NCBI GenBank assembly: GCA_013388985.1
Contig: JACAEF010000074.1
Location: forward strand, 1-57,619
From: Rhodocyclaceae bacterium
GTDB lineage: Bacteria > Pseudomonadota > Gammaproteobacteria > Burkholderiales > Rhodocyclaceae
Direction of reading: 5' to 3'
Length of the DNA: 57,619 bases
Position 1 is the stretch's first letter; each line of letters starts with the position of its first letter. The position numbers and the translations under genes were made by a program. Below the pieces are notes generated by a model. It ran no database searches and was not told the DNA's origin. It was given only the letters and a program-made list of their open reading frames with translations. Shown one piece after another: positions 2,799 through 52,800 of this stretch.

Positions 2799-3655
2799 TC
2801 CGGCTGCTCGCGCTGCTGATGCGGCTTCTCACCTGGCTGCCGTTTCCATTGCTGGCGGCATGCGGGCGTGGCCTCGGGCGGCTGCTCTACGTCCTGGGAC
2901 GCGAGCGGCGGCGGGTGACGCTGATCAATCTCGGCCTGTGCTTCCCGACGCTCTCCGCGCAGGAAAAGTCGGCGCTGGCGAAACGGCACTTCGCGCTGTT
3001 CGGCCGCAGTTTCCTCGAACGCGGGTTACTGTGGTGGTCGAGCCCCGAGCGCATCCGCCGCAGGGTGAGACTCGAAGGCAGGGAGCATCTCGACGCGCTC
3101 AAGGGCAAGCCGGTGATCCTTCTGGTGCCGCACTTCCTCGGCCTGGACGCTGCCTGGACGCGCCTGTCGATGGAATACGACATGTCCGGCATCTACGCCA
3201 ACCAGAAAAATCCGGTCTTCAATGCCCTGCTCTACGAGGGCCGGGCGCGTTTCGGCAAGTCGCTGATGCTCTCGCGCCAGGATGGCACGCGCCGCGGCGT
3301 CAAGGCGATCAAATCCGGCTATCCGTTCTTCTATCTGCCCGATCTCGACTACGGGCCGCGCGATGCGCTGTTCGTGCCGTTCTTCGGTGTGCCGGCGGCG
3401 ACCATCACCGGTCTCTCGAGGCTGGCGCGGCTGACCGGCGCCACCGTGCTGCCGGTGATCGCGCGCATGACCGAAAGCGGCTATGTGGTCCGCATCGGCG
3501 CGCCGTGGCAGGACTTTCCCGGCGAGAGCATCGAGGCCGATACGCGACGCATGAACGCTTTCATCGAAGCCGAGGTGCTGAAGATGCCGGAGCAGTATTA
3601 CTGGCTGCACAAGCGCTTCAAGACACGCCCGCCGGGGGAAAAACGGCCGTATTGA
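2795..3655 (+). CDS. LpxL/HtrB-family lysophospholipid acyltransferase, second copy
   Basis: A second lipid A type acyltransferase of 286 residues, starting [17 protein letters not shown] with an N-terminal membrane anchor. The catalytic H-x4-D is in [11 protein letters not shown], followed by [15 protein letters not shown], the conserved FYLPDLDYG block and a C-terminal [12 protein letters not shown]. It overlaps the preceding homologue by 4 bp. Residues about 57-65 (KSALAKRHF) are encoded by a 23/25 match to the dispersed 25-bp repeat, without an obvious change in protein length. The next gene, dapF, starts 50 bp downstream. Confidence 0.87.
2965..2989 (-). repeat. dispersed 25-bp repeat, copy inside the second acyltransferase gene
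   Basis: Matches the reverse complement of the repeat at 23 of 25 positions (AAA replaces GGG/A near its end). Read in frame it gives KSALAKRH. Confidence 0.6.
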
Positions 3656-3704
3656 ACCGCTATTGCCGCAAGCCGGCGTGGCCGGGACGGCGTATGCTTT
3701 TCCG

Positions 3705-4550
3705 ATGAAGATCCGTTTCACCAAGATGCACGGGCTCGGCAACGACTTCGTCGTGCTCGACGCCGTGCGCCAGAACTTCGTGCCGACGCCCGCGCAGGCG
3801 CGCTGGCTCGCCGACCGGCATTTCGGTGTCGGCTGCGACCAGATCCTCGTCGTCGAGCCGCCGCAGACCGGGATTGCAGATTTTCGCTATCGCATCTTCA
3901 ACGCCGACGGCGGCGAGGTCGAGCAATGCGGCAACGGCGCGCGCTGCTTCGTGCGCTTCGTTCACGAGCAGGGTCTGACGACCAAGCGCGAAATCCGCGT
4001 CGAGACGCTCGCCGGCATCATCACGCCACGGCTGGAAGACAACGGCGAGGTGACGGTGGACATGGGCGTGCCGCGCTGGCAGCCGGCCGAGATCCCCTTC
4101 CTTGCCGATAGCGACGAACTGGTGCAGATCCTCGAATTCGCCGGCCGCAGCGCGCGGATCACGGCCGTTTCGATGGGCAATCCGCATGCCGTGCAGGTCG
4201 TCGACCACGTCGACAGCGCGCCGGTGGCGCGCGACGGCCCGCTGATCGAGGCGCATCCGCGCTTTCCCAAGCGCGTCAATGCCGGTTTCATGGAGGTCGT
4301 CGATCGCCACCACATCCGCCTGCGCGTATATGAGCGCGGCGCCGGCGAGACGCTCGCCTGCGGCACCGGTGCCTGCGCCGCCGCGGTGGTGGGCATCCGG
4401 CGCAATCTTCTCGATTCGCCGGTGCGCGTGGCGACGCGCGGCGGCGAGCTGACGATCGCCTGGGAGGGCATGGGACGGCCGGTGCGGATGACGGGGCCGG
4501 CCGTCACCGTGTTCACAGGCGAACTCGAACTGCCCAAGGAGATCGCATGA
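3705..4550 (+). CDS. dapF: diaminopimelate epimerase
   Basis: Converts LL- to meso-diaminopimelate, the immediate precursor of lysine and of the peptidoglycan cross-linking residue. The 281-residue protein starts [20 protein letters not shown]. It has both catalytic cysteines in their signature motifs, Cys75 in EQCGNGARC and Cys219 in LACGTGACA. The ATG at 3705 is chosen over upstream in-frame codons because it matches the family N-terminus. The stop overlaps the DUF484 gene by 4 bp, in the common dapF-DUF484-xerC order. lysA, the next step towards lysine, is elsewhere in this window. Confidence 0.97.
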
Positions 4551-7280: not shown

Positions 7281-7286
7281 GTCAGG

Positions 7287-7311
7287 GTGCCGTCCCGCCA
7301 GCGCCGACTTT
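7287..7311 (+). repeat. dispersed 25-bp repeat, perfect copy between rlmI and the DUF3299 gene
   Basis: Exact 25-bp copy (GTGCCGTCCCG at its left end, CAGCGCCGACTTT at its right end). It fills the gap between two convergent genes and its last base is the last base of the DUF3299 stop codon. It has no obvious stem, so it is not a classical terminator. Confidence 0.85.
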
Positions 7312-7838: not shown

Positions 7839-7841
7839 TTC

Positions 7842-11640: not shown

Positions 11641-11918
11641 GCCGGGCGTGGCGCTTTCGGCTGTTGGCGCTGGCGCTGCTGTGGGCGCAGCTCGCGCTTG
11701 CCGCGCATGGCATCGAGCATGCGCTCGCCGCGCACGACGAGGCTTGCATCGAATGCCTCGTGCTGCCGGGTTTTTCGGCGCCGCCGCCCACGCTGCCGGT
11801 GCCGCCGGCGGTCGCGGCGCCCCGTGTCGCTCCCGACCGTGCCGTCCCGCCAGCGCCGACTTTCGCGCCGCGTCGTCCATATCTCAGCCGCGCGCCGCCG
11901 CTTTCTCCAAGCCGCTGA
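11637..11918 (+). CDS. small Cys/His-containing exported protein
   Basis: Hypothetical 93-residue protein translationally coupled to zur. It has a signal-like N-terminus (FRLLALALLWAQLALAAHG) and then HGIEHALAAHDEACIECLVL, with three His and a CxxC that could bind zinc. The remaining half is a low-complexity Pro/Ala tail. Residues about 68-76 (AVPPAPT) are a translated perfect copy of the dispersed 25-bp repeat. A protein of similar design (46295-46636) sits at the head of the copper locus, so these may be small periplasmic metal handlers; no function is established. Confidence 0.6.
   Translation: MSRAWRFRLLALALLWAQLALAAHGIEHALAAHDEACIECLVLPGFSAPPPTLPVPPAVAAPRVAPDRAVPPAPTFAPRRPYLSRAPPLSPSR
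11839..11863 (+). repeat. dispersed 25-bp repeat, perfect copy in the small gene after zur
   Basis: Exact 25-bp copy read in the frame giving AVPPAPT, inside a Pro/Ala-rich tail. Confidence 0.85.
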
Positions 11919-14853: not shown

Positions 14854-15631
14854 CCTGTTCGCGCTGCCGTTTTTCGCCGGCCTGCCGCTGGCGCTCATAT
14901 TGCCGCTGGTCGGCCTCTTCCTGCGGCTGCGCGACGAATGGCTGGCGACCTTGGGGCTTGCGCATCTGGCGGGCGCCGGGGCGCTCGCCGGCATGGCGGC
15001 CGCCTGGCCGCCGATCGCCGGCGCACTCTTCGGCGCCCTCGGCGGCGGCGCGCTGAAACATTGGGCCGGCGGGCTCGGCAATTCGTCCTACGGCCTGATG
15101 ATCCTCGCCGGCTGGGCAATGACCCTGCTCGTCGCCGCCAACACGGCGCTCGGCGAGGCGCTCGGCCATGCGCTCGTCGACGGGCAACTGTTCTTCGCCG
15201 GCGGGCTCGAGGCGGCGGTCGCGGCGGTCTGCCTTGCCGTCGGCCTGCCGCTCTTGCGTTGGCTCGCGCCGCGCCTTATCGCGGCGCGCTTCTTCCCCGA
15301 ACGGGAAAAGGCGAATCATTTGCCGGCCTGGCGCTGGCACCTGGGCTTCGATCTGATGGCCGCCGCGCTGATCGCCGCCGGCGCCGCGACCCTGGGATTG
15401 ATGGCGAGCTTCGCCCTCGTCTTCGTGCCCGCCTGGCTCGCCTTCCGGTGCGCGCCCGACTGGCATCGCGCGCAAGGCTGGGCCGCGGGCTTGGGCGCGG
15501 CGGGCTACGGGCTTGCCTTCGCGCTGGCGCTGGTACTCGATCAGCCCTTCGGGCCGGTCGTGGTCGCCGTGCTGGTGCTGTTTTTCGTGCTGAGTGCGCT
15601 GACGTGCCGTCCCGCCAGCGCCGACTTTTGA
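14846..15631 (+). CDS. metal ABC transporter permease, first set
   Basis: Inner-membrane protein of 261 residues with about seven to eight hydrophobic segments, of the ABC-3 (ZnuB/TroC) type, although more divergent than the second-set permease. Partner genes upstream overlap it. The last eight residues (CRPASADF) are encoded entirely by a perfect copy of the dispersed 25-bp repeat, and the TGA stop follows directly. The native C-terminus has therefore probably been replaced or extended by the repeat. Confidence 0.78.
   Translation: MDSLFALPFFAGLPLALILPLVGLFLRLRDEWLATLGLAHLAGAGALAGMAAAWPPIAGALFGALGGGALKHWAGGLGNSSYGLMILAGWAMTLLVAANTALGEALGHALVDGQLFFAGGLEAAVAAVCLAVGLPLLRWLAPRLIAARFFPEREKANHLPAWRWHLGFDLMAAALIAAGAATLGLMASFALVFVPAWLAFRCAPDWHRAQGWAAGLGAAGYGLAFALALVLDQPFGPVVVAVLVLFFVLSALTCRPASADF
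15604..15628 (+). repeat. dispersed 25-bp repeat, perfect copy at the end of the permease gene
   Basis: Exact 25-bp copy. It supplies the final codons (CRPASADF) of the upstream permease, and the stop TGA is made from the bases just after it. Confidence 0.85.
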
Positions 15632-16517: not shown

Positions 16518-17257
16518 CTTCGGTCATCGACTGCGAGCATGTCACGGTCGAGCGCGACGGCCGCGTCGTGCTCGAGGACATCAGCGTCACGCTCGAAGCC
16601 GGCGATTTCGTCGCCCTGATCGGGCCCAACGGCGCGGGCAAGTCGACCCTGCTCGCCGCGATCCTGGGTCTCATTCCACTGTCCTCTGGCACGATCCGGC
16701 TCTTTGGCGAAGCGCCCGAGCGCGGCCGCCTGCGCGTCGGCTATGTGCCGCAGCAAGGCAGCTTCCGCACCGATTTCCCGGTGCGCGTCGCCGAGATGGT
16801 GGCGATGGGCGCGATGTCCCCGGGCTGGCGCGGCGCGCGAAAGTCGGCGCTGGCGGAACGGCACGTTACCGCGGCGCTCGAACGCTGCGGTATTCCTCAT
16901 TTGGCGACACGCGCCGTCGGCGCGCTCTCGGGCGGCGAGCGCCAGCGCGCGCTGATCGCGCGGGCGCTCGCCGTAGAGCCCGAGCTCTTGATCCTCGACG
17001 AGCCGACCGCGAGCATCGACCCCTCTGGCCAGGAGGCGCTCTTCGATCTCCTGGGAGCGCTCAACCGCGAGATGAGCGTGCTGGTCGTCTCGCACGATCT
17101 GGGCCTCACCACCCGTTATGCGAAAAGCGTCTGGTGCTTGAACCGCACGCTGTGCCGCCACGACGCGCTCGAACTCGATGGCGACACGCTGGCGCGGCTG
17201 TATGGCTTTCCCTTGCGCGCGATCGACCATCGCCCAGACCGGGAGCGCCGGCCATGA
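16514..17257 (+). CDS. znuC: metal ABC transporter ATP-binding protein, second set
   Basis: ABC ATPase of 247 residues, family length. Walker A is GPNGAGKST, the Q-loop is YVPQQGSF, the signature is LSGGERQRALIA, Walker B is LLILDEPTASID and the H-loop is LVVSHDLGLT. A TTG at 16514 overlapping the upstream stop is the best start, since no ATG is available before VIDCEHVTVERDG. Residues about 109-117 (KSALAERHV) are encoded by a 24/25 copy of the dispersed repeat in a region of variable sequence between Q-loop and signature, apparently without changing protein length. Confidence 0.88.
   Translation: MTSVIDCEHVTVERDGRVVLEDISVTLEAGDFVALIGPNGAGKSTLLAAILGLIPLSSGTIRLFGEAPERGRLRVGYVPQQGSFRTDFPVRVAEMVAMGAMSPGWRGARKSALAERHVTAALERCGIPHLATRAVGALSGGERQRALIARALAVEPELLILDEPTASIDPSGQEALFDLLGALNREMSVLVVSHDLGLTTRYAKSVWCLNRTLCRHDALELDGDTLARLYGFPLRAIDHRPDRERRP
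16840..16864 (-). repeat. dispersed 25-bp repeat, copy inside znuC
   Basis: 24 of 25 positions match the reverse complement of the repeat. In frame it reads KSALAERH, the same frame as the copy in the second acyltransferase gene. Confidence 0.75.
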
Positions 17258-18663: not shown

Positions 18664-19991
18664 GCGAGATGAGCAGCCAGATGACCCCGGCCGAGATCGT
18701 CTCGGAACTCGACAAGCACATCGTCGGTCAGGCGCGCGCCAAGCGCGCGGTGGCGATCGCGCTGCGCAATCGCTGGCGGCGCGCGCAGGTGGCGGAGCCC
18801 CTGCGTTCCGAGATCACGCCGAAGAACATCCTGATGATCGGCCCCACCGGCGTCGGCAAGACCGAGATCGCGCGGCGGCTGGCACGGCTTGCCAACGCGC
18901 CGTTCATCAAGGTCGAGGCGACGAAATTCACCGAGGTCGGCTACGTCGGCCGCGACGTCGATACCATCATCCGCGATCTGGCCGAGACGGCCGTCAAGGA
19001 CGAGCGCGAGCGCGCCAAGCGCCAGGTGCGCGATCGCGCGCTCGACGCCGCCGAGGACCGCATCCTCGACGTACTGTTGCCTCCGGCAAGAGTCGGCTTT
19101 GGCGAGACGGCACCCGCCGAGGAAACTTCGACGCGGCAGAAGTTCAGGAAGAAGCTGCGCGAGGGCGAACTCGACGACAAGGAGATCGAGATCGAGGTGG
19201 CAGCGCCCATCGCCAGCATGGAAATCCTTGCCCCGCCCGGCATGGAGGATCTGACCCAGCAATTGCAGGGCATGTTCCAAAGCCTCGGCGGCGGCAAGAA
19301 GCGCACGCGCAAGATGAAGATCCGCGATGCGCTCAAGGCCCTGGCCGACGAGGAGGCCGCGCGGCTCATCAACGACGAGGAGGTCAAGGCGCAGGCGATC
19401 CGCAACGTCGAGCAAAACGGCATCGTCTTCCTCGACGAGATGGACAAGATCGCCTCGCGCAGCGAAACCCACGGCGCCGACGTCTCGCGTCAGGGCGTGC
19501 AGCGCGATCTGTTGCCGCTCGTCGAGGGCACGACGGTGTCGACGAAATACGGCATGATCAAGACCGACCACATCCTCTTCATCGCCAGCGGCGCCTTCCA
19601 CTTCGCCAAGCCCTCCGACCTGATCCCCGAGCTGCAGGGTCGCTTTCCGATCCGCGTCGAGCTCGATTCGCTGTCGGTGGACGATTTCGAGCGGATACTG
19701 ACGCAGACCGACGCCTGTCTGACGCGCCAGTATCAGGCACTGCTCGGCACGGAGGGCGTCAAGCTCGAATTCGCGCCGGAGGGCATCCGGCGGCTGGCCG
19801 AGATCGCCTTCGAGGTCAATGAGAAGACCGAGAACATCGGCGCGCGCCGGCTCTACACCGTGATGGAAAAACTGCTCGAAGAAGTCTCGTTTGCTGCGCC
19901 GGCCGGAACGGTGACCGTGGATGCCGCCTATGTCGATGCCCGGCTGGCGGAGTTGGCGCGGCGCGAGGATTTGTCGCGTTACGTGCTATGA
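18660..19991 (+). CDS. hslU: ATP-dependent protease HslVU, ATPase subunit
   Basis: AAA+ unfoldase of 443 residues, the same length as the E. coli protein. It starts [20 protein letters not shown] and has Walker [14 protein letters not shown], the pore-loop [11 protein letters not shown], the I-domain block [19 protein letters not shown] and Walker [12 protein letters not shown]. It ends LSRYVL, the tail that inserts into HslV. A stretch at 19089-19113 in the variable I-domain resembles the dispersed repeat at 21/25, which may be chance. Its stop overlaps the following ATPase gene by 4 bp. Confidence 0.96.
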
Positions 19992-22405: not shown

Positions 22406-23734
22406 TTACAGCAGCGGCAGCTCGTCGGCCAGCAGCTCGGCGAGGGTCTCGCGCCGGCGGATCAGGCGCATTTCCGTGCCCTCCACCATCACCTCGGCGG
22501 CACGCGGCCGGGAGTTGTAGTTCGAGCTCATCGCCATGCCATAGGCGCCGGCCGAAAGAACCGCGAGCAGATCGCCTTCGGCGAGCGCGAGCTCGCGATC
22601 GTGGCCGAGGAAATCGCCGGATTCGCAGACCGGGCCGACGATTTCGTAACGCCTTGTCGCTATGGGTGCCGCCCCGCCAGCGCCGACATCATTGCCCCCC
22701 CTCGCTCGCAAACCCGGCTCGCTGCCCCCCACAGGGGGGGCGTCGGCCTGGGACGGCCCGGCGCCGACTTTCACGATCTCATGGTAGGCGTCGTACAGGG
22801 CAGGCCGCGCCAGATCGTTCATCGCCGCATCGACCACGGCGAAGTTCTTTTCCGCGCCATGCTTGAGGATCTCGACACGGGTGAGCAGCAGCCCCGCATT
22901 GCCGACCAATGAGCGGCCGGGTTCGAGCAGCAAGAGCTCCTTGCGGCCGACCAGCCGGTCGAGCATCGGCGCGAGATAGTCGGCCACCGGCAGCACCGGC
23001 TCGTCGCGATAACGGATGCCCATGCCGCCGCCCAGATCGATGTGGCTGAAGGTGATGCCTTCCTTGGCGAGGATGTCGACGAGCTCAAGCACCTTGCCGG
23101 CGGCCTCGGCGGCCGGTTGCGGATCGATCAGCTGCGAGCCGATGTGGCAGGCGATGCCGCGGATCTCCAGATGCGGCAGCGCGCGTGCGCGGCGATACAG
23201 CTCGATCGCCGTGTCGAAGGGCACGCCGAACTTGGCGCTCCTGAGCCCGGTGGAGATGTAGGGATGGGTTTTCGGATCGACATCCGGATTGACGCGCAAG
23301 GAGATCGGCGCGCGCTTGCCCAGCGCGCCCGCGACCGCATCGAGATGCTCCAGCTCGCTGGCCGATTCGACGTTGAAGCAGTGGATGCCGGCCGCCAGGG
23401 CCTCCTGCATCTCCGCGCGCGTCTTGCCGACCCCGGAGAAAACCACCTTGCCGGGATCGCCGCCGGCGGCGATGACCCGGGCGAGCTCGCCGCCGGAGAC
23501 GATGTCGAAGCCGGCGCCCAGCCCCGCGAACAGCTTGAGGATCGAGAGATTCGAGTTGGCCTTGACCGCATAGCAGATGCGCGCCGGCCGGTCTGCGAGG
23601 GCCTGGCGGTAGGCGTGGTAAGCGTTTTCGAGCGCGGCACGGGAATAGACATAGCAGGGCGTGCCGTAACGCGCGGCGATCTCGGCCAGGGGCACGCCCT
23701 CGACGCGTGCGCCGCCGTTTAGAATTTCGATCAT
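22406..23734 (-). CDS. lysA: diaminopimelate decarboxylase carrying an in-frame repeat insertion
   Basis: PLP enzyme converting meso-diaminopimelate to lysine. It has 442 residues, against about 415-420 typical. The PLP lysine is Lys58 in CYAVKANSN. GIACHIGSQL, DLGGGMGIRY, EPGRSLVGNAG and CESGDFLGHDREL are family blocks; the last holds the catalytic Cys. Residues about 322-357 are foreign, encoded by the composite repeat 22666-22771 and inserted between YDAYHEIV and RRYEIVGPVCE. They are rich in Gly, Ala and Pro. ATG 23734 overlaps the lptM stop. The enzyme is probably active because the insert falls in a surface loop, but that is inference. Confidence 0.93.
   Translation of the reverse strand: MIEILNGGARVEGVPLAEIAARYGTPCYVYSRAALENAYHAYRQALADRPARICYAVKANSNLSILKLFAGLGAGFDIVSGGELARVIAAGGDPGKVVFSGVGKTRAEMQEALAAGIHCFNVESASELEHLDAVAGALGKRAPISLRVNPDVDPKTHPYISTGLRSAKFGVPFDTAIELYRRARALPHLEIRGIACHIGSQLIDPQPAAEAAGKVLELVDILAKEGITFSHIDLGGGMGIRYRDEPVLPVADYLAPMLDRLVGRKELLLLEPGRSLVGNAGLLLTRVEILKHGAEKNFAVVDAAMNDLARPALYDAYHEIVKVGAGPSQADAPPVGGSEPGLRARGGNDVGAGGAAPIATRRYEIVGPVCESGDFLGHDRELALAEGDLLAVLSAGAYGMAMSSNYNSRPRAAEVMVEGTEMRLIRRRETLAELLADELPLL
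22666..22771 (+). repeat. composite 106-bp repeat element inside lysA
   Basis: The left end is a 25-bp copy with four mismatches. The right end (22753-22771) is ACGGCCCG plus GCGCCGACTTT. In between lie C- and G-rich tracts, CCCCCC then ACA then GGGGGGG (a potential hairpin), that differ from the inner part of the 85-bp form. Length minus 25 is 81, a multiple of three, so the frame of lysA is kept. Confidence 0.7.
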
Positions 23735-28486: not shown

Positions 28487-29172
28487 AGAAGCCGGCTATG
28501 CTTTCTGGAAAGACGAAACTGGATTTGCCGAAGATCGATTTCCAGGCGGTCATCGAGGATTTCCGTACGCTCGATCCGAAAGACCCCGGCGCCTGGCCGT
28601 TGATCCCGCGCATCGTCATCCTGATCGGCCTATTCCTGTTGCTGGTGGCTGCCGCCGCCTGGTTCGGCTGGCAGGCCCAGTACGAAGAGCTCGATGCCAA
28701 GCGCCAGGAAGAGGCCAAGCTCAAGGAAGATTGGCTGGCGAAGAAGAAGCAGGCCGTCAATCTCGATGCCTACCGCAACCAGCTTGGCGAGATCGAACGC
28801 TCCTTCGGGGCATTGCTCAAACAATTGCCCAATGCTGCGGAAATGGAATCGCTGCTGGTCGATATCAACCAGGCGGGCCTGGGGCGCGGCTTGCAGTTCG
28901 AATTGTTCAAGCCGGGCAGCGAGGTGGTGAAAGATTTCTACGCGGAACTGCCAATCACGATCAACCTGACCGGCAGCTATCACGATTTCGGCTACTTCGC
29001 CGGAGATATCGCCAAACTGCCGCGCATCGTCACCCTGAACGACATCAATATCGCGCCGGGAAAATCGGGGGATGGGCTGACCATGAGCGCAACCGCAAAG
29101 ACATTCCGCTATCTCGACGAAGAAGAGATCGCCGCCCGCAAGAAGCAGCAAGCGAAGGGGGCGAAGAAATGA
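28483..29172 (+). CDS. pilO: type IV pilus assembly protein PilO
   Basis: Bitopic protein of 229 residues with a short cytoplasmic N-terminus, one transmembrane helix (IVILIGLFLLLVAAAAWFG), a periplasmic coiled coil (DAKRQEEAKLKEDWLAKKK) and a C-terminal ferredoxin-like domain with NLTGSYHDFGYF. It partners with PilN and binds the lipoprotein PilP, bridging inner membrane to secretin. Confidence 0.93.
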   Translation: MKKPAMLSGKTKLDLPKIDFQAVIEDFRTLDPKDPGAWPLIPRIVILIGLFLLLVAAAAWFGWQAQYEELDAKRQEEAKLKEDWLAKKKQAVNLDAYRNQLGEIERSFGALLKQLPNAAEMESLLVDINQAGLGRGLQFELFKPGSEVVKDFYAELPITINLTGSYHDFGYFAGDIAKLPRIVTLNDINIAPGKSGDGLTMSATAKTFRYLDEEEIAARKKQQAKGAKK

Positions 29173-29717
29173 GAGTCTTCGTGCTGAGTGTGGCCACGAT
29201 ATTCGTCTTGGCCGGTTGTGCCGAGCGAGGGCACGATGAAATCCGGCAGTGGATGGAAGAGTCTTCCCGTGATTTGAAGGGAGGGATACCGCCGCTGCCC
29301 GAGCTGAAGCCATTTCCGGTCGTCTCCTACGAGGCGGCCGACAAAGTCGATCCCTTCAATCCCTCCCGAATCGAACCGGAGCGTAAGGGTGAGGGGGGGG
29401 CAAACAAGCCCGACTTCGACCGTCCACGCGAGCAGCTCGAAAGTTACCCGCTCGAATCGATCAGTTACATCGGCGTGGTCGACAAAGGCAAAAGCAAGAC
29501 CAGACGCGCCATCGTCCAGGCCGACGGTGTCGTCTATCAGGTCGGCATCGGCAATTATCTCGGTCAGAATTTTGGGCGCATCGTGGCGATCACGCCCACC
29601 GAAATCGTCTTGAAGGAAATCGTGCAAGATCCGAGCGGACAGACGTCCGATTGGGTGGAGCGGGAAATGACCCTGCAACTCCGGGACGGGGCACAGGGCA
29701 AGGAGTCGAAAAAATGA
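29169..29717 (+). CDS. pilP: type IV pilus lipoprotein PilP
   Basis: Inner-membrane lipoprotein of 182 residues (MRVFVLSVATIFVLAGC is the signal with lipobox LAGC) linking PilNO to the secretin PilQ. It has an unstructured linker, then the beta-domain LESISYIGVVDKGKSKTRRA, VVYQVGIGNYLGQNFGRI and a GREMTLQL-like end. An uninterrupted run of eight G (29393-29400) lies in the linker (EGGAN); slippage there would frameshift the gene. Confidence 0.92.
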   Translation: MRVFVLSVATIFVLAGCAERGHDEIRQWMEESSRDLKGGIPPLPELKPFPVVSYEAADKVDPFNPSRIEPERKGEGGANKPDFDRPREQLESYPLESISYIGVVDKGKSKTRRAIVQADGVVYQVGIGNYLGQNFGRIVAITPTEIVLKEIVQDPSGQTSDWVEREMTLQLRDGAQGKESKK

Positions 29718-31936
29718 AATTCATGCGATCCGTCTTGGCCGGTCTGGCCCTGATGCTGGCAGCCATCTCGGCATCCTTTGCGCAAGGCGCGGCGGAAGCC
29801 GGTAAAGCGAATGTCATCGAAACTCTCGAAGTCGGCAAGCTCGGGGGCAACACCGTCGTCAAGTTGGGGCTTCGCAAGGAGCTTGCAGAGAATCCATCCA
29901 ATTTCACGATCACCAATCCGGCCAGGATCGTGTTCGATTTTCCCGGCACGGAAAACGGCCTCGGCTACTCGACCAAGGTGGTCAATGAGGGGATTCTGCG
30001 CAGCTACAGTGTCGTGCAGGCCGGCGAGCGCTCCCGTCTGGTGCTGAATCTGGCGCAGAATGCCCGCTTCGAGGCGCGCAACGACGGCAAGCAGCTCTTC
30101 ATCACGCTGCTGGACGACGTGCGCTCGGACACGGCGGCCGCGCCGCCTGGCATACAGCACTTCGCGCAGACCGGCCGTGCCCAGGAAAACGCGATTCGCA
30201 ACATCCAGTTCCGCCGCAACAAGGAAGGTGCCGGGGTCGTGCTCGTCGACCTCACTTCGAGCGATGCAGCCATCGATGTGACGCAGAAAGGCTCGAAACT
30301 GTATGTCGCGTTCAAAAAGACGCAACTGCCCGAGTCGCAGCGCAAGCGGCTCGACGTGGTCGATTTCGGCACGCCGGTCACCACGGTGACGACCCGCCAG
30401 GAAGGCGATGGCGTGACGATGGAAATCGTACCCACCGGCCTTTGGGAGCACACCGCCTACCAGAGCGACAATCAGTTCATCGTCGAAGTCCGCCCGGTCA
30501 AGGAGGATCCGAACAGGCTCTTCCAGGGCAGCAAGAAGGGCTATCAGGGTGAGCTCATCTCACTCAATTTCCAGAACATTCCTTTGCGCGAGCTGCTGCA
30601 CGTCTTCGCCGACATCACCAATTTCAACATCGTCGTCAGCGATTCCGTGAGCGGCAATGTCTCTCTGCGCTTGAATGACGTGCCTTGGGATCAAGCCCTC
30701 GAAATCGTCCTGCAGCAGAAAAATCTGGCGATGCGCAAGAACGGCAACGTGATCTGGATCGCGCCGCAGGACGAGCTGGCTGCTCGGGATGAACAAGCGA
30801 TCAAATCCCGCGAAACCGCGATTGCGGCCGAGCAGCCGCGCCTTGAGCTGTTTCAGCTCAATTATGTCAAGGCCGAAGATCTGATGGATATGATCACCAA
30901 GGAAAAAGAGGAGCTGAAGGGCAAGGACAAGGCTTCTGCATTCCTCTCTTCCGTAGGCAAGATCACAATCGACAAGCGTACCAATCAGGTCTTCATCTAT
31001 GACGTGCCGAGCAAGCTGGACATGATTTCTAGTCTGCTCAAGCAGATCGACCGTCCGGTCCGGCAGGTGTTGATCGAAGCGCGCATCGTCGAGGCGGACA
31101 CCAACTTCACCAAGTCGCTCGGTGTGCGCCTGGGCACGCATGATCATCGGGGCATGAACGTCGGTCACAGTTTTGGTAGTGATACCAACGTGCGCTTCGG
31201 TCTCGGAGCTTCGACCAACGATACTTATGCGCATCTGCCCGACGGAGGAAACTATCCGGCCGCAGCCATCATTACCAATATCGACCGCACGACAGGCGAG
31301 ATCACTTATACCCGCGAAGTGCCGACACCGAAAATCGAGAATAGCCAACTGGTCAATTTGGCGGTGCCCAATCCAGCCGGCCAGTTCGCGCTGACTCTGA
31401 TGAACCGCGCCAAGACCATGTTGCTGACACTCGAACTATCAGCCCTAGAGGCGGATGGCAAGGGCAAGACCATCTCCAGTCCACGCATCATGACGATGGA
31501 TCAGATGGAAGCCACCATCCAGCAGGGTGTGCGGGTGCCATATCTGGTCTCGAGCGCTTCCGGTGCGACCTCGGTGGCCTGGCAGGACGCTAACCTGTCG
31601 TTGAAAGTTAAGCCCCATATTACGCCTGACGGGCGTGTCATGCTGAAGCTGAAAATTACCAAGAATGCCCTCGGGCCGCAGGTCAGCACTTTCCTTGGTT
31701 ACTCGATCAAGACCAAGGAAGTGGAATCGGACGTCCTGGTGGACAACGGCGGCACGGTGGTGATCGGCGGCATCTACGAACAGGAGGAGCGCGACAGTAC
31801 CACACGTGTGCCCTTCTTTGGCGACCTGCCTTATGTCGGTTTCCTGTTCAAGACCCGCTCGCGGACAGACAACCGAACCGAGCTCCTGGTCATGATCACG
31901 CCGAAGATCATCGACAATGCGCTGAGCATGCGCTGA
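29714..31936 (+). CDS. pilQ: type IV pilus secretin PilQ
   Basis: Outer-membrane secretin of 740 residues with signal peptide MKFMRSVLAGLALMLAAISA. AMIN domains at the N-terminus (about 40-260) bind peptidoglycan. They are followed by an STN/N0 domain (ISLNFQNIPLRELLHVFADI), N1 (LELFQLNYVKAEDLMDMI) and the secretin core (VRQVLIEARIVEADTNFTKSL, then VLVDNGGTVVIGGIYEQEE, VPFFGDLPYVGFLFK). It is the channel for the pilus fibre. It ends 22 bp before aroK. Confidence 0.95.
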   Translation: MKFMRSVLAGLALMLAAISASFAQGAAEAGKANVIETLEVGKLGGNTVVKLGLRKELAENPSNFTITNPARIVFDFPGTENGLGYSTKVVNEGILRSYSVVQAGERSRLVLNLAQNARFEARNDGKQLFITLLDDVRSDTAAAPPGIQHFAQTGRAQENAIRNIQFRRNKEGAGVVLVDLTSSDAAIDVTQKGSKLYVAFKKTQLPESQRKRLDVVDFGTPVTTVTTRQEGDGVTMEIVPTGLWEHTAYQSDNQFIVEVRPVKEDPNRLFQGSKKGYQGELISLNFQNIPLRELLHVFADITNFNIVVSDSVSGNVSLRLNDVPWDQALEIVLQQKNLAMRKNGNVIWIAPQDELAARDEQAIKSRETAIAAEQPRLELFQLNYVKAEDLMDMITKEKEELKGKDKASAFLSSVGKITIDKRTNQVFIYDVPSKLDMISSLLKQIDRPVRQVLIEARIVEADTNFTKSLGVRLGTHDHRGMNVGHSFGSDTNVRFGLGASTNDTYAHLPDGGNYPAAAIITNIDRTTGEITYTREVPTPKIENSQLVNLAVPNPAGQFALTLMNRAKTMLLTLELSALEADGKGKTISSPRIMTMDQMEATIQQGVRVPYLVSSASGATSVAWQDANLSLKVKPHITPDGRVMLKLKITKNALGPQVSTFLGYSIKTKEVESDVLVDNGGTVVIGGIYEQEERDSTTRVPFFGDLPYVGFLFKTRSRTDNRTELLVMITPKIIDNALSMR

Positions 31937-32495: not shown

Positions 32496-33571
32496 CCATC
32501 GACTTGAAGGAACGCAGCTATCCGATCCTGATCGGTTCCGGCCTGCTGGCGGACCCCGCCACCTTCACCAGCCTGACCGGCCGTCGTGCGGCGATCGTCA
32601 GCAACGAAACCATCGCGCCGCTCTATCTCGAGCGTCTGGAAACCACATTGGAAAAAGTCGGCGCTGGCACGACGGCACTGGTGCTGCCGGACGGCGAGGC
32701 CTACAAGAACTGGGAAACCCTCAATCGCATCTACGACCATCTCCTCGCCGAGCGCTGCGATCGCGGCACGACCGTCATTGCACTCGGCGGCGGCGTGATC
32801 GGCGATCTGGCGGGCTTCGCCGCTGCGACCTATCAACGCGGGGTGCCGTTCGTCCAGGTGCCGACCACCCTACTGGCCCAGGTCGATTCGTCGGTGGGGG
32901 GCAAGACGGGCATCAACCATCCGCGCGGCAAGAACATGATCGGCGCCTTCTGGCAGCCGCGGCTGGTCGTCGCCGATACCGATACTTTGAACACCCTGCC
33001 CGATCGCGAACTTTCCGCCGGCCTGGCCGAGGTCATCAAATACGGCCTGATCCGCGATCTGCCATTCCTCGACTGGCTGGATGCCCACATGGAACGGCTC
33101 ATGGCGCGCGATGGCGAGGCGCTCGCATTCGCGATCGAGCGCTCCTGCGCCAACAAGGCGCAAGTCGTCGCCGGCGACGAGCTGGAGACGGCCAAGGAGG
33201 GGGGGCGTGCCCTGCTCAACCTGGGCCATACCTTCGGCCATGCGATCGAGGCCGGCGCGGGGTATGGCGTCTGGCTGCATGGCGAAGCCGTGGCTGCAGG
33301 CACGTTGATGGCGCTGGAGTTGTCGCGGCGTCTTGGCTGGCTGAGCGCCGCCGAGGTCGAGCGCGTGATCGCGCTGTTCCAGCGTGCCCGCCTGCCGGTG
33401 CGTGGGCCGGCGCTCGGTGTCGATCGTTATCTCGACTTGATGGGGCACGACAAGAAAGTGCGCGATGGCAGGCTGCGCCTCGTGCTGCTGAGAAAGCTCG
33501 GGGAGGCCGTGACCTATGCCGACGCGCCGCCCGCGGAAATCCGCGCGGCGATCGAAGCCTGCTGTGGCTGA
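32483..33571 (+). CDS. aroB: 3-dehydroquinate synthase
   Basis: NAD- and metal-dependent enzyme of 362 residues making 3-dehydroquinate. It starts [20 protein letters not shown]. Motifs are [48 protein letters not shown] and the metal-binding [12 protein letters not shown] and [10 protein letters not shown]. Residues 58-65 (KVGAGTTA) are encoded by a 23/25 copy of the dispersed repeat in a length-neutral position. A run of seven G (33199-33205) lies in the loop before LLNLGHT. Confidence 0.95.
32654..32678 (-). repeat. dispersed 25-bp repeat, copy inside aroB
   Basis: 23 of 25 match on the reverse complement. In frame it gives KVGAGTTA, the same frame as the cusB copy. Confidence 0.65.
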
Positions 33572-41053: not shown

Positions 41054-42391
41054 GTGAGCAGGGTGCTCAAAATAATCATTTTGGCTGCCGGCCAGGGCAA
41101 GCGCATGCGCTCGGCCCTGCCCAAGGTGTTGCACCCGATCGCCGGCAAGCCGATGCTCGCGCACGTCATCGATACGGCGCGGCGGCTCGAGCCGGCGAAA
41201 ATCTGCGTGGTCTATGGGCATGGCGGCGAGCGTGTGCGCGAGGCGCTCGATGCGCCCGATCTCGTCTGGGCGAAGCAGGAGCCGCAGCTCGGCACCGGCC
41301 ATGCGGTGATGCAGGCCTTGCCGCTTCTGAATGCCACGGGTGCCGTCCCGCCAGCGCCGACTTTGGTGCTGTATGGCGACGTGCCGCTGATCCGCGCCGA
41401 AACCCTGCGGCGCCTGGTCGCCGCAGCCGGCGACGACAAGCTCGCGCTGCTCACCGCGCAGCTTGCCGATCCGCACGGCTATGGCCGTATCGTCCGCGTC
41501 GATGGCAAGGTCGCGCGCATCGTCGAGGAGAAGGACGCCGACGATGCCGAACGCGCTATCCAGGAGGTCAACACCGGCATCCTCGTCGCGCCGCTGGCGG
41601 CGCTGGCACGCTGGCTGCCGCAACTGTCTAACCGCAACGCACAGGGCGAGTATTACCTGACTGACATCGTTCAGCTTGCCGTCGCCGAAGGCATGGAAGT
41701 CGTCACCGCGCAGCCGGAGGCGAACTGGGAGACCGACGGGGTCAACAGCAAGAGCCAGCTCGCGCGACTCGAGCGCATCCACCAGCGCAACCTCGCCGAG
41801 GCGCTCATGGAGCAGGGCGTGACGCTCGCCGATCCCGACCGCATCGACATCCGCGGCGAACTCGTCTGCGGACGCGACGTGTTCATCGACGTCAATTGCG
41901 TGTTCGAAGGCCGTGTCGAGCTCAAGGACGGGGCGCGCATTCTGCCCAACTGCGTGATCCAGGATGCGGTGGTCGGCCCGCATTCGATCATCGGTCCGTT
42001 CGCGCGGCTGCGGCCGGGGACGGTGCTCGCCGAGGACGTGCATATCGGCAATTTCGTCGAGGTGAAGAACTCGACCATCGCCGCGCATTCGAAGGCCAAC
42101 CATCTCGCCTACATCGGCGACACGACGATGGGCAGCCGCGTCAATGTCGGTGCCGGCACGATCACCTGCAACTACGATGGCGCCAACAAGCACCGCACCG
42201 TGATCGAGGACGACGTCTTCATCGGTTCCGACACCCAGCTCGTCGCGCCCGTGACCGTCGGCCGCGGCGCCACCCTCGGCGCCGGCACGACGCTGACCAA
42301 GGATGCGCCCCCCGGTGAGCTCACGCTCTCGCGTGCGAAGCAGGTCTCGGTTCCCGGCTGGAAACGGCCGGTCAAGAAGAAAAAGGATTGA
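41054..42391 (+). CDS. glmU: bifunctional UDP-N-acetylglucosamine pyrophosphorylase / glucosamine-1-phosphate acetyltransferase
   Basis: Makes UDP-GlcNAc for peptidoglycan and lipid A. 445 residues. The N-terminal pyrophosphorylase has [19 protein letters not shown] and YGDVPLI; the C-terminal left-handed helix has [22 protein letters not shown]. Start GTG 41054 is given, but GTG 41063 is better placed behind GAGGGG and gives [12 protein letters not shown]. Residues about 96-104 (GAVPPAPT), just before [10 protein letters not shown], are a translated perfect copy of the dispersed repeat. The product feeds the same pathway as GlmS, encoded 3 bp downstream. Confidence 0.96.
41340..41364 (+). 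repeat. dispersed 25-bp repeat, perfect copy inside glmU
   Basis: Exact 25-bp copy in the frame giving AVPPAPT, sited in the loop before the conserved YGDVP strand. Confidence 0.85.
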
Positions 42392-46277: not shown

Positions 46278-46294
46278 CGTAGCATCAGTCTGCC

Positions 46295-46636: not shown

Positions 46637-46655
46637 ACGCTCCGTGAGGCAGGAC

Positions 46656-46740
46656 CTGCCGTCCTGGCGTCGCTCGCGGGCGCTACGCCCCCGCCTGCGG
46701 CGGGTCCCCCTCCGCTGCGAGCTCCTTCAGCGCCGACTTT
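46656..46740 (+). repeat. 85-bp long form of the dispersed repeat, intergenic copy
   Basis: Ends match the 25-bp form (CTGCCGTCC at left, CAGCGCCGACTTT at right). The inner part contains the perfect hairpin CCCGCC-TGC-GGCGGG (46690-46704). 81 of 85 bases agree with the copy in cusA, which is in the opposite orientation. It fills the 130-bp gap before the CusF-like gene, ending 26 bp before its ATG. Confidence 0.85.
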
Positions 46741-46766
46741 CGTTCAATTCCATTCTGGAGGTTGTC

Positions 46767-47057: not shown

Positions 47058-47059
47058 CC

Positions 47060-48343: not shown

Positions 48344-49809
48344 AAAACGTTGCAATCATCGTGCTGCTGGCCGTCGCCGCGGCGCTCGGTTACTGGCTGG
48401 GCGGCCAAAAAATCGGCGCTGCCAGCACGGCACCTGCTGCCGAAACCGCCGCATCCGGCAAGAAGATCCTCTACTACCGCAACCCGATGGGCCTGCCCGA
48501 CACCTCGCCCACGCCGAAGAAGGACTCGATGGGCATGGACTACCTTCCCGTCTATGAAGGCGAGGAGGAGGCCGACGGCGGCGTGAAGATCAGCCCGGCC
48601 AAGGTGCAGAAGCTCGGCGTGCGCACCGAGGCGGCCGCCATGCGCGAGCTCTCGCGCCCGATCCGCGCGGTCGGCCGCGTCGAGGTCGACGAGCGGCGCG
48701 TTTTTGCCATCGCGCCGAAGTTCGAAGGCTGGATCGAGCGCCTCTTCGTCAACACGACCGGCCAGCCGGTGGGCCGCGGGCAGGCGCTGTTCGAGGTCTA
48801 TAGCCCGGAGCTCGTCTCGGCCCAGCGCGAATACCAGATCGCCGCGCGCGGGATGGACGCGCTTTCAGGCGAAGCGCGGGAAAGCATCCGGCAGGTGGCC
48901 GACGCCGCGCTGGCACGATTACGCAATTGGGATATTTCCGCCGAGCAGATCGAACGGCTCAGAGCCGGCGGCGAGCCTGCGCGCACGCTCACCTACCGCT
49001 CCCCTGTCGCTGGCGTGGTGTTGGAAAAGAAAGCGCTGCAGGGCCAGCGCTTCATGCCCGGCGAGGCGCTCTATCAGATCGCCGACATCGGCACGGTCTG
49101 GGTGATCGCCGATGTCTTCGAGCGCGACATCGCCGAGGTCGTGGTCGGCATGCCGGTCACGGTGAGGATCGACGCCTGGCCCGGCCGCGAGTTCGCCGGC
49201 AAGGTCGGCTTCATCACTCCGACGCTGAATGCGCAGACGCGCACGGTGCCGGTGCGCATCGAGCTGGCGAATCCGCGCGGCGAATTGCGGCCGGCGATGT
49301 ATGCGAAAGTCGAGCTGAAAGTCGGCGCTGGTAGGACGGCACTGACGGTGCCGGTGGCGGCAGTGATCGATGGCGGCACGCGCCAGCGCGTCCTCGTCCA
49401 GCGCGGGGAGGGCCGCTTCGAGCCGCGCGAGGTGAAGCTGGGCCTGCGCAATGATGACTACGTCGAAGTGAAGGAGGGGGTTCAGGCCGGCGAGCAGGTC
49501 GTCGTCGCGGCCAACTTCCTGATCGATTCTGAAAGCAACCTGAAAGCGGCGCTCGGCGGAATGACGGAGAAACCTGCGGTCAGCCACCACGCGGTCGGCA
49601 CGCTCGACGGCATCGAGCCCGATGGCACGCTGACGATCTCCCACGAACCGATCGCGAGCCTCGGCTGGCCGAAGATGACGATGGGCTTCGTGCCGGCCAA
49701 TGCCGCGCTCGTCGACAAGCTCAAGCCGGGCACGCCGGTCGCTTTCGAATTCGTCGAAAGGAAGCCCGGCGAGTGGGTCATTACCAAGATCGAAGCGCGG
49801 AAGAACTGA
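48340..49809 (+). CDS. cusB: periplasmic adaptor of the Cu(I)/Ag(I) efflux pump, with heavy-metal and CusF domains
   Basis: 489 residues: N-terminal transmembrane anchor, a heavy-metal-binding domain (KKILYYRNPMGLPDTSP, then KKDSMGMDYLPVYE) with the Met residues typical of CusB, the lipoyl/hairpin and beta-barrel domains, and a C-terminal CusF-like domain (about 415-489, SHEPIASLGWPKMTMGF). Residues 327-335 (KVGAGRTA) are encoded by a 23/25 repeat copy. 48409-48433 is a weak 21/25 repeat match. Overlaps cusC by 4 bp. Confidence 0.9.
   Translation: MKNVAIIVLLAVAAALGYWLGGQKIGAASTAPAAETAASGKKILYYRNPMGLPDTSPTPKKDSMGMDYLPVYEGEEEADGGVKISPAKVQKLGVRTEAAAMRELSRPIRAVGRVEVDERRVFAIAPKFEGWIERLFVNTTGQPVGRGQALFEVYSPELVSAQREYQIAARGMDALSGEARESIRQVADAALARLRNWDISAEQIERLRAGGEPARTLTYRSPVAGVVLEKKALQGQRFMPGEALYQIADIGTVWVIADVFERDIAEVVVGMPVTVRIDAWPGREFAGKVGFITPTLNAQTRTVPVRIELANPRGELRPAMYAKVELKVGAGRTALTVPVAAVIDGGTRQRVLVQRGEGRFEPREVKLGLRNDDYVEVKEGVQAGEQVVVAANFLIDSESNLKAALGGMTEKPAVSHHAVGTLDGIEPDGTLTISHEPIASLGWPKMTMGFVPANAALVDKLKPGTPVAFEFVERKPGEWVITKIEARKN
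49318..49342 (-). repeat. dispersed 25-bp repeat, copy inside cusB
   Basis: 23 of 25 match on the reverse complement; in frame KVGAGRTA, length-neutral. Confidence 0.65.
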
Positions 49810-49810
49810 C

Positions 49811-52800
49811 ATGCTCGCCCAACTCATCGACTGGTCGGCGCGCAACAAGCTTCTGGTGCTGCTCGCCACGCTGTTCGTCGTGCTGGCAGGCGTCTGGGCG
49901 GTGTTGAAGACGCCGCTCGATGCGCTGCCCGATCTCTCCGACGTGCAGGTGATCGTCTACACCGAGTTTCCCGGCCAGGCGCCGCAGGTGGTCGAGGATC
50001 AGGTCACCTACCCGCTGACCACGGCATTGCTCGCGGTGCCCAAGTCGAAGGTGGTGCGCGGCTTCTCGTTCTTCGGCGCCAGCTTCGTCTATGTGATCTT
50101 CGAGGACGGCACCGACCTCTACTGGGCGCGCTCAAGGGTGCTCGAATACCTCAACACCGCGGCCGGCCGCCTGCCGCAGGGCGTCGCCCCCAGCCTCGGG
50201 CCGGATGCCTCCGGCGTCGGTTGGGTGTTCCAGTATGCGCTGCTGGGCGCCAACCGCACGCTGGCCGAGCTGCGCACGCTGCAGGACTGGTATCTGCGCT
50301 ACCCGCTCGCCAAGGCGCCGGGCGTGGCCGAGGTGGCGAGCGTCGGCGGCTTTGTGCAGCAATACCAGGTGGTGGTCGATCCCGCCAAGCTGCGCGCGTA
50401 TGGGGTGCCTTTGGCCACGGTGGCCAACGCGATCCGGAATTCCAACCGCGATGTCGGCGGACGGGTCGTCGAGCTGGCCGAGACCGAGGTCATGGTGCGC
50501 GGGCGCGGCTACTTGCGCGGCAAGGGCGATCTCGAACAGCTGGTCGTCAAGTCCGACAAGGGCACGCCGGTGCTGCTCTCCGATGTCGCGCGCGTCGAGC
50601 TCGGTCCCGACGAGCGGCGCGGCATCGCGGAATTGAACGGCGAAGGCGAGGTGGTGTCGGGCATCGCGGTCGCGCGCCATGGCCAGAATGCGCTCGAGGT
50701 GATCGGCAACCTCAAGGAGAAGATTCGGGAATTGGCGGCCGGCCTGCCGGAAGGCGTGTCGATCGAGACGGTTTACGACCGCTCGGAACTCATCGAGCGC
50801 GCGATCGCCACCTTGAAGAAGACGCTGAGCGAGGAGGCGCTGATCGTCGCGCTGGTCTGCATCGTCTTCCTGCTGCATGTGCGCAGCGCCCTGGTGGCGA
50901 TCCTGATGCTGCCGGTCGGCGTGCTCATCGCCTTCATCGCGATGAGGCTGCTCGGCATGAACTCGAACATCATGAGCCTGGGCGGCATCGCGATCGCGAT
51001 CGGCGCGATGGTCGATGCGGCGATCGTGATGATCGAGAACGCGCACAAGCATCTCGAACGGCTGAAGCCGGGCGAATCGCGGACGGAAGCGATGATCCTC
51101 GCCTGCAAGGAAGTCGGACCGGCGCTGTTCTTCTCGCTGCTGATCATCACCGTCTCCTTCCTGCCGGTGTTCACGCTCGAGGCGCAGGAGGGCCGGCTGT
51201 TTGCGCCGCTCGCCTGGACCAAGACCTTCGCGATGGCCGGCGCGGCGCTGCTCTCGGTGACCTTGGTCCCTGTTCTCATGCTGCTGTTCATCCGCGGCCG
51301 CATTCTGCCGGAGGCGAAGAACCCGGTGAATCGCACGCTGATCGCGCTCTACCGGCCGGTGATCGCGCTGGTATTGCGCTGGAAGCGGACGACGATCCTC
51401 ATCGCCGTCGCGGCCGTGGCGGTGTCGGTCTGGCCGGCGCGGCAGCTCGGCAGCGAATTCATGCCGACGCTCAACGAGGGCACGCTGTTCTACATGCCGA
51501 CCGGCCTGCCGGCGATGTCGGTGACCAAGGCGGCGGAGTTGCTCCAGACGCAGAACAAGATCATCAAGAGCTTTCCCGAGGTCGCGGAGGTCGTGGGCAA
51601 GGCGGGCCGGGCCAACACGGCAACCGATCCGGCGCCCATCGAGATGTTCGAGACGGTGATCAACCTCAAGCCCGAAAAAGACTGGCGGCCGGGCATGACC
51701 GTCGACAGGCTGATTGCCGAGCTGGACCGGGCGCTGCAGTTCCCGGGCATCGCCAATTCGTGGACGATGCCGATCAAGGCGCGCATCGATATGCTCTCGA
51801 CCGGCATCCGCACCCCTGTCGGCATCAAGGTGTTCGGCAAGGACCTCGACGAGATGGAGAAACTGGCGCGCGAGATCGAAGCCGTGGTGAAGCGGGTGCC
51901 CGGCACCCGCTCGGCTTACGCCGAACGCATCACCGGCGGCTGGTATCTCGACATCGAGCCGGATCGTGCGCAGCTCGCGCGCTACGGCATCCTCGTGGGC
52001 GACCTGCAGGAGATCGTGGCGACCGCGCTCGGCGGCGAGACGCTGACGACGCTGGTCGCCGGCCGCGAACGCTTCGGCGTCTCGTTGCGTTATCCGCGGG
52101 AATTGCGCGACGACCCGGCGAAGATCGCCGCCAACGTGCTGGTGCCGGCGATGGCCGAGATGAATGGGCCGCCGGTGATGGTGCCGCTCGGGCAAGTGGC
52201 GCGCGTGAGCATCCGAAAAGGCGCGCCGGCGATCCGCACCGAGAATGCACAGCTTGCGGCCTACATCTACGTCGATATCCGCGACCGCGACATCGGCTCG
52301 TATGTGAAGGACGCGCAGCGCGCGGTGGCGCAGCAAGTGACTTTTCCGCCGGGCAGCTATGTGACCTGGAGCGGCCAGTTCGAGTACATGGAGCGGGCGC
52401 TGGAACGCTTGAAGCTCGTCGTGCCGGCGACGCTCGCGATCATCTTCCTGCTGCTCTACCTCAACTTTCGGCAGCTCGCGCCGACCCTGATCGTGATGCT
52501 CTCGGTGCCCTTCGCGCTGGTCGGCGGCATCTGGCTGCTCTGGCTGTTGGACTACCACCTCTCGGTCGCGGTCGCGGTCGGCTTCATCGCGCTCGCTGGT
52601 GTGGCCGCCGAGACCGGCGTGGTGATGCTGATCTACCTCGACCATGCGTGGGCGGCGAAAAAGTCGGCGCTGAAGGAGCTCGCAGCGGAGGGGGACCCGC
52701 CGCAGGCGGGGGCGCAGCGACCGCGAGCGACGCCGGGACGGCACCCGACGGTGGCCGAGCTCTACGCAGCCGTGATGGAAGGCGCGGTGGAGCGCGTGCG

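Follow-up and report, generated by a model that had tools for sequence, protein, structure and literature searches.

The DNA analysed here, positions 1 to 57,619 of contig JACAEF010000074.1 from a Rhodocyclaceae bacterium (57,619 nt; hereafter, the window), carries many copies of a 25-bp word, AAAgTCGGCGCTGGCNNNACGGCAC, that probably acts as a DNA-uptake signal, a label by which DNA would be known as 'self'. Five traits of a DNA uptake sequence (DUS) were observed, namely over-representation on both strands, origin in place at many sites, even spacing, selection at the level of DNA, and dialects. The class assignment is drawn from these. It is also fairly likely that the Rhodocyclaceae are a third family with an uptake language of its own, comprising a long two-block word (AAAGTC, a dialect block, ACGGC), genus dialects, a predicted receptor, and a small element that lands in the word.

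To count the word, the whole source genome (G000; 2,896,965 bp in 156 contigs; its genus is coded g1) was searched on both strands with the consensus AAAGTCGGCGCTGGCNNNACGGCAC, which has NNN at positions 16-18, allowing up to three mismatches. A total of 579 copies were found, 307 forward and 272 reverse, or about one per 5 kb, and the pattern read backwards gave 0 and 0. The window holds 11 short copies and two long forms, against no short copies in 100 dinucleotide shuffles of it. A first-pass annotation of the window had described the word as a repeat family present in both orientations far beyond chance, and these counts agree with it. All the positions it listed hold the word (exact at 7287, 11839, 15604 and 41340, 24/25 at 16840, and 23/25 at 2965, 32654 and 49318), and its long forms at 46656 and 52660 are correct, with 84-85 nt each. 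It overlooked the copies at 48409 (two mismatches) and 19089 (three mismatches), and its third long form, at 22666, is in fact a short copy with three mismatches. The copies in the window are as follows, with mismatches counted to the consensus.

2965..2989, + strand: word, 0 mismatches, in an open reading frame (ORF) at 2860-3708, in the frame KSALAxRH
7287..7311, - strand: word, 0 mismatches, abutting a DUF3299 gene (7311-7838, -) after its stop codon, with one base shared
11839..11863, - strand: word, 0 mismatches, inside a short predicted ORF (about 11619-11918, +), in the frame AVPPAPT
15604..15628, - strand: word, 0 mismatches, in the last codons of an ABC-3 permease gene (14846-15631, +), with the stop codon next
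16840..16864, + strand: word, 0 mismatches, in an ABC-transporter ATPase gene (about 16514-17257, +)
19089..19113, + strand: word, 3 mismatches, in an AAA+ ATPase gene (18618-19991, +)
22666..22690, - strand: word, 3 mismatches, in a pyridoxal-phosphate-dependent decarboxylase gene (LysA-like, about 22406-23734, -)
32654..32678, + strand: word, 0 mismatches, in aroB (3-dehydroquinate synthase)
41340..41364, - strand: word, 0 mismatches, in a loop of GlmU
46656..46740, - strand: long form (word with a nested 60-nt element), located upstream of the probable start codon (ATG) of a gene with a CusF domain
48409..48433, + strand: word, 2 mismatches, early in a CusB-like gene (48340-49809, +)
49318..49342, + strand: word, 1 mismatch, also within that CusB-like gene (48340-49809)
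52660..52744, + strand: long form (word with a nested 60-nt element), in frame in a CusA-like (AcrB family) gene (49700-53002)

Some of the gene names need a comment. ORF 2860-3708, called lpxL-like in the first-pass annotation, had no Pfam match, nor had the small ORF at about 11619-11918. The name ZnuC for the ATPase gene at about 16514-17257 also comes from that annotation, and the AAA+ ATPase gene at 18618-19991 is one that we take to be HslU-like.

The shape of the word was resolved in a 457,619-bp sample of G000 (the window plus 400 kb), in which 30, 38, 20, 10, 3 and 4 copies have 0, 1, 2, 3, 4 and 5 mismatches to the consensus, followed by background. The reversed-pattern control gave 0, 0, 0, 0, 0 and 1 in the same sample. 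Both edges of the word are sharp, save for a weak preference for a purine just ahead of position 1. The near-invariant positions are 1-3, 5-13 and 19-24, and position 4 and positions 14-18 are tolerant. The relative information of the word, based on all sites with up to five mismatches, is 36.8 bits in G000, and 32.5 and 30.6 bits in its relatives G017 and G002, respectively. A reading as an RNA hairpin was dropped, as the 25-mer folded no better than shuffles (z scores of 0.28 and 0.14; -1.46 for the 85-mer) and the only Rfam match in the window lay elsewhere. That match is an S-adenosylhomocysteine riboswitch at 387-464 (-), above the Rfam gathering score.

The word is patchily distributed within the family. 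A scan of named genomes gave at least 113 stretches with the word, and the 80 listed are mostly from Rhodocyclaceae; among the matches listed are Sulfuritalea, Sulfurisoma (including Sulfurisoma sediminicola BSN1), Rugosibacter, metagenome-assembled genomes, and a few records labelled otherwise. Seventeen of the 18 other genomes of the same genus hold 122-709 copies, and G005 holds none. When 249 genomes of the family were scanned with a 23-nt pattern (up to three mismatches), 29 had more than 100 copies, these being 8 of 9 genomes in genus g1, 7 of 8 in g2, 4 of 4 in g70, 7 of 7 in g88, and one each in g9, g62 and g69. Lower counts were obtained for G064 (77), G277 (69) and the remaining genomes (at most 40). 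The first-pass annotation had named the presence of these words at matching sites of unrelated taxa as the mark of conserved coding sequence. This was not seen where it was visible: the AroB orthologue of G021, from another genus, lacks the word (this comparison covered genomes within the family), and 24 genomes from outside the family but within the order contain 0-4 copies each, genome-wide. G005 (87% complete), G194 and G277 have none or far fewer copies, though their congeners are rich in the word, and we regard them as natural losses that are useful for finding the receptor. The identity of GltB to the copy in the window does not track carriage of the word in a simple way, so gains, losses or transfer are likely. 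The source organism is probably a Sulfuritalea-like member of the Rhodocyclaceae.

The dialects have a common skeleton, AAAGTC-N12-ACGGC. Position 24 is mostly A in three g1 genomes (92/96, 91/100 and 70/76) and is G in 46 of 49 copies from sampled g2, g9, g62, g70 and g88 genomes; some g1 species end in ACGGCG or ACGGTG, as seen in 20-kb samples. Only 10 exact skeleton copies were found in the g1 genome G016, yet it has 510 at up to three mismatches. Genus g11 has the dialect AAAGTCAGTCSC-N6-ACGGCG. Its member G028 has few copies of the g1 word, and in an unprompted count of its 10-mers the most enriched were the overlapping words AAAAGTCAGT and AAAGTCAGTC, the latter with 16 copies in 100 kb, 14 of which are followed by ACGGCG at the same distance. 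Exact skeleton copies number 341-459 in six of seven g11 genomes and 5 in G194, and the skeleton search also returned AAAGTCGACGCTGG forms in G086. The same frame with an altered middle block is the trace that co-evolution of a receptor and its word would be expected to leave. Counting enriched 10-mers showed no clear further dialect in G123, G070 and G033 (100 kb each) or G064 (60 kb).

Other repeats and matches came up in these searches. G123 has a short tandem array with a 12-nt unit, ACGGGGGAAACC, near positions 16289-16373 of C1, and in G002 (C1:1-400000 and 451000-510999) overlapping 12-mers of AAATCAGGGCATGTTTCCTA each occur about 59 times, perhaps as a clustered regularly interspaced short palindromic repeat (CRISPR) array. 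In a collection of viral contigs the exact word was present in only 40 stretches, 38 of them with a single copy, and a viral origin was dropped because matches were few and nearly all single-copy. Two viral contigs have four (L380, 883-2240) and three (L405, 275-1926) exact copies within 1.4-1.7 kb, a tight packing unlike the even spacing in bacterial genomes.

The spacing of the word is more even than chance. The coefficient of variation of the spacings is 0.64, 0.62 and 0.65 in three genomes, compared with 0.95-0.98 simulated, and none of 5000 random placements was as even in any of the three. Only one of 272 spacings is below 500 bp, where about 28 are expected. No clear strand bias was detected along 400 kb of two genomes, nor genome-wide (307/272), and a replication-strand signal was dropped on this account. 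Density was also compared between shared and unshared DNA, the latter being stretches of at least 3 kb unaligned between two 460-kb samples, some of which may be rearranged shared DNA. It is 0.57 per 10 kb in unshared DNA (5 copies in 87 kb) and 2.09 per 10 kb in shared DNA of G002, and 1.60 (12 copies in 75 kb) and 2.42, respectively, in G017. The lower density in unshared DNA is thus clear in one of the two genomes, G002, and weak in G017.

Even spacing, together with the conservation of the word as DNA (see below), would also fit with a site for a protein that organises or repairs the chromosome, acting in architecture, recombination or segregation and needing an even coating of the genome. 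The spacing of the uptake signal sequence (USS) of Pasteurellaceae was once read in this way by Karlin et al., according to a passage of PMC1939737. We nevertheless consider such a site unlikely for the word. Chi and the FtsK orienting polar sequences (KOPS) are strand-biased signals, and the word has no such bias. Its patchiness within the family, its near-loss in single species and the genus-specific rewriting of a 6-nt block fit better with a recognition system that is non-essential and diverging.

To see whether the short word changes in place or is inserted, orthologous sites were compared. The first-pass annotation had likened the family to Rickettsia palindromic elements (RPE), which insert in frame, and had proposed aligning carrier proteins with orthologues that lack the word. 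At AroB, the local length is identical in all 14 genomes covered, our own included (two more were not covered); nine of them carry the word (0-5 mismatches) and five have unrelated letters, so that the protein has the same length with or without it. The GlmU loop carries the word (up to four mismatches) in 10 of 15 genomes, six in one orientation and four in the other, the six being opposite in orientation to the copy in the window. The loop is variable in length, with 28-34 residues in the stretch shown and 55 in G019, and indels therefore play a part there. Elsewhere in the window, the orthologous site of 2965 has 0 mismatches in G002 and 1 in G017, that of 11839 has 1 in G017, and the surroundings of 49318 are 11 amino acids longer in G017.

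In the pairwise comparisons, gaps were scored in the word itself and in 25 columns on either side of it. For the closest species pair, 73 of 103 sites in 460 kb of G017 were comparable in G002, and 50 of these are gap-free (43 kept, and 7 changed, being absent or with 4-6 mismatches). In all, 57 are kept (43 gap-free, 2 with net zero change, 12 with net gaps of 1-60), 8 have 4-6 mismatches (6 gap-free, 2 with 3 nt), and 8 are absent, of which one has no gap, one has net zero change, one has a gap of a single base and five are short of 29-41 nt. In the reverse direction, 68 of 80 sites were comparable, with 58 kept (44 gap-free), 1 flipped, 5 near matches (2 gap-free) and 4 absent (none gap-free, 1 net zero). 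For the more distant G000, 28 of 98 sites were comparable in G017. Of these, 18 are kept (4 without gaps and 2 with net zero change), 1 is flipped, 4 are near matches, all with gaps, and 5 are absent. In G002, 22 of 98 were comparable, and 14 are kept (again 4 without gaps and 2 with net zero change), 1 is flipped, 2 are near matches, neither with a gap, and 5 are absent. Several of the absent rows in the printed G000 alignments show a half-word beside the gap, and for the site at 22666 another alignment row shows the word in G017; some absences are therefore likely alignment artefacts, and absence is unsure in these rows. A fair reading is that copies change largely in place, within regions that also gain and lose bases. 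Origin in place by point mutation was seen at many sites, though not at all, and the short word is mostly not an inserted element.

These comparisons leave little room for a mobile in-frame repeat, of the RPE type or of the repetitive extragenic palindromic (REP) and miniature inverted-repeat transposable element (MITE) type, with the short word as the insert or as an excision scar; we hold this to be quite improbable. It would account for the five of 73 G017 sites that lack 29-41 nt in G002, for the net losses of 6-51 nt in all 10 absent rows between G000 and G017 or G002, for the variable length at GlmU and some other sites, and for the long form, in which an insert of about 60 nt sits inside the word at all four informative places of eight tried. 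Against it stand the equal length of AroB in 14 of 14 orthologues, five of them without the word, and the G017-G002 pair, in which 43 of 73 sites keep the word with no gap and 7 of the 16 changed sites likewise align without one. The lost lengths also vary, with no single element size, and position-specific tolerance, even spacing and synonymous conservation are not expected of decaying insertions. Insertion of the short word is thereby ruled out at AroB and at the gap-free sites, though not at every site. The RPE-like behaviour first proposed is thus lost for most short copies that can be judged (equal length at AroB; 50 of 73 G017-G002 sites gap-free) and retained for the long form.

The long forms at 46656 and 52660 (84-85 nt, 96% alike, in opposite orientation) consist of the word with a separate 60-nt element nested inside it that is rich in inverted repeats. 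There are about 24 copies of the long element in the source genome, of which 14 are exactly 85 nt by end-finding and 8 are without clear ends. In 460-kb samples, its core was found six times in G000, once in G017, and not in G002. Of the eight places tried against G017 and/or G002, four had no usable orthologous site, and the four informative ones (46656, 52660, C130:112343, and G017 C1 near 80816) show a plain or degenerate word in the other genome. The length difference is 59-60 nt at three of them; the alignment of C130:112343 is messy, with the word present. At 46656, G017 has a degenerate 25-nt word (85 versus 25 nt), and there is a 60-nt gap relative to G002. At 52660, G017 has the plain 25-mer, and the CusA-like gene of the window is 20 codons longer owing to the 60 nt. 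In-frame insertion against an empty orthologous site is therefore observed for the 60-nt element, in one coding case examined closely. By these comparisons, a small element would land in, or leave, the word itself. The 60-nt element resembles RPE and REP/MITE in lying in frame in a conserved gene and in its richness in inverted repeats. It differs from them in sitting inside the word in the four informative comparisons and in being mostly seen in G000, and the short word differs from them in being mostly not inserted.

A second composite was noted at L058, L051 and G017 C1 near 150774, 209123, 213643, 228057 and 394061, where the word or half of it is followed by an inverted partial copy like GCGTCCCGCCGGGCGCCGACTC, and often by the word again. 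This is perhaps another small element built on the word.

Conservation of the word was measured at fourfold-synonymous positions of 27 coding sites among 60 gap-free G017-G002 sites. Differences amount to 11/137 (8%) in the word and 404/1459 (28%) in the flanks (Fisher, 6e-8), a drop larger than that due to choosing sites by their match in one genome, which lowers divergence by about half at most. The reverse comparison (26 coding sites among 57) gave 12/141 and 387/1408. At codon positions 1 and 2, divergence is no lower in the word (38/450) than in the flanks (334/5344), indicating that the DNA rather than the protein is conserved. The G000 comparisons, with only 3-4 coding sites each, point in the same direction (e.g. 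0/19 vs 67/210).

Of the 98 copies in the 457,619-bp sample, 70 lie fully within predicted genes, 10 run across a gene end, and 18 are intergenic. The genes were predicted with our own codon-usage caller, which probably over-predicts, and the intragenic copies are therefore in an open frame by construction. As predicted genes cover about 94% of the sample (431,958 of 457,619 bp), intergenic copies are over-represented, with 18 of 98 in about 6% of the sequence. Six readings are used unequally: K[VIL]GAGxTA in 26 copies, AVPPAPT in 20, CRPASADF in 11, KSALAGRH in 9, SRRWRDG in 3 and VPSRQRRL in 1. The 70 intragenic copies and the preferred readings K[VIL]GAGx... and KSALAGRH might suggest a conserved protein motif or a codon-usage artefact of GC-rich genes, yet this can be dismissed almost entirely given the six readings on both strands, the intergenic excess, the conservation of synonymous sites but not of amino-acid positions, and the lack of copies in dinucleotide shuffles; the synonymous-site test and the several reading frames rule out a conserved peptide. 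An antisense reading of the word is held in the N-terminal leader, MKRAVPPAPIF, of a prepilin-like protein at G000 C129:53837.

For an uptake signal, the following course would be expected. A surface receptor of the type IV pilus would bind the word on free DNA, and PilQ and ComEC would bring the bound DNA into the cell, so that competent cells might favour DNA of their own kind. Recombination could then swap the local copy, and better-labelled alleles would spread by molecular drive, presumably with a benefit to the cell. Copies would arise mainly by point mutation at tolerant places, such as protein loops and ends and intergenic gaps. The window contains genes that are presumed to be part of the uptake machine, near copies of the word.

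26817..31936, + strand: type IV pilus operon with PilN, PilO, PilP and a PilQ-type secretin
26817-27896, + strand: PilM-like ORF, labelled by position only

The Pfam matches in the operon are PilN, PilO, PilP, Secretin, AMIN and STN. ComEC was found in 34 of 37 genomes searched, and a minor pilin in the source genome exceeds the Pfam cut-off for ComP_DUS.

Several observations weigh against an uptake signal. A ComP_DUS match was found in 102 of 111 genomes of the family, in carriers and non-carriers alike. In a chosen set of 30 genomes, 29 had a match, among them G005 and G194, which have next to no copies of the word, and the sole one without a match is the carrier G086. Another carrier, G018 (83% complete), has no ComEC match. 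Neither ComEC nor a ComP_DUS-type pilin separates carriers from non-carriers, and neither the charge of that pilin nor its cysteines vary with presence of the word. A search of the source genome with PF12836 did not reveal ComEA, the sole match being a 1000-amino-acid frame; among 32 genomes searched, 8 had no match to this family and most other matches were frames of about 780-1000 amino acids, which resemble Tex. As to the word itself, its density of one per 5 kb is below that of the USS (about 1 per 1 kb in a passage of PMC7811141), and the close or inverted pairs known in Neisseria are almost absent. As to origin in place, five of the 73 G017 sites are 29-41 nt shorter in G002, and most sites in the G000 comparisons have gaps within 25 columns. 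The five sites absent from G017 show net losses of 6-43 nt, and the five absent from G002 show net losses of 27-51 nt.

The receptor search by Pfam singled out no candidate, since nearly all genomes searched have ComP_DUS and ComEC. Within the family sample, ComP_DUS scored highest (99-100 bits) in G117, G139 and G033, genomes without the word, which may have an unrecognised uptake word of their own.

Known uptake sequences share even spacing, an origin by point mutation, and dialects, according to passages of PMC1939737, PMC3630211 and PMC7811141, and in part of a 2025 paper (PMC12616744) such recognition is said to be known from just two families, Neisseriaceae and Pasteurellaceae. In a literature search that left out most subscription journals and all bioRxiv preprints, we found no report of an uptake sequence in Rhodocyclaceae, and nothing on natural transformation in Sulfuritalea or on the first 15 letters of the word. 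If the word is an uptake signal, it would be a third case, in environmental bacteria, and such systems would not be tied to host-associated life. It would also offer a much longer and information-rich word for studying receptor-word co-evolution, naturally occurring pairs of dialects and losses with which to trace the receptor comparatively, and a new data set on which the molecular-drive model could be tested.

The word resembles the DUS of Neisseriaceae, whose receptor is ComP, in having many copies on both strands, genic and intergenic, and clade dialects, in a bacterium with a type IV pilus. Its reverse complement, TGCCGTCCC, has TGCCGTC in common with the AT-DUS, which contains that string. 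It differs from the DUS in its length (about 25 bp with two constant blocks, as against about 10-12 bp), its density of one per 5 kb with almost no close pairs, and its sequence and family. The suggestion of a DNA-uptake-type signal in the first-pass annotation is well supported as to the kind of system (copy number, spacing, DNA conservation, dialects), whereas its link to the Neisseria word is not supported: the neisserial GCCGTCTGAA (up to one mismatch) occurs once in the window against 5.25 expected, which speaks against a neisserial DUS proper of this 10-12-mer type. Neisseriaceae and Rhodocyclaceae are both Betaproteobacteria, and with TGCCGTC in common the word and the neisserial DUS may have a common origin, but GCCGTCTGAA is not enriched in the window. 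The likeness to the USS of Pasteurellaceae, a gammaproteobacterial family, lies in a long motif with a core and an outer conserved part, even spacing, and origin by point mutation (as described in parts of PMC1939737 and PMC7811141), while the USS has a 9-bp core with AT-rich flanks and the word is rich in GC and sharply bounded, ACGGC forming its second fixed block.

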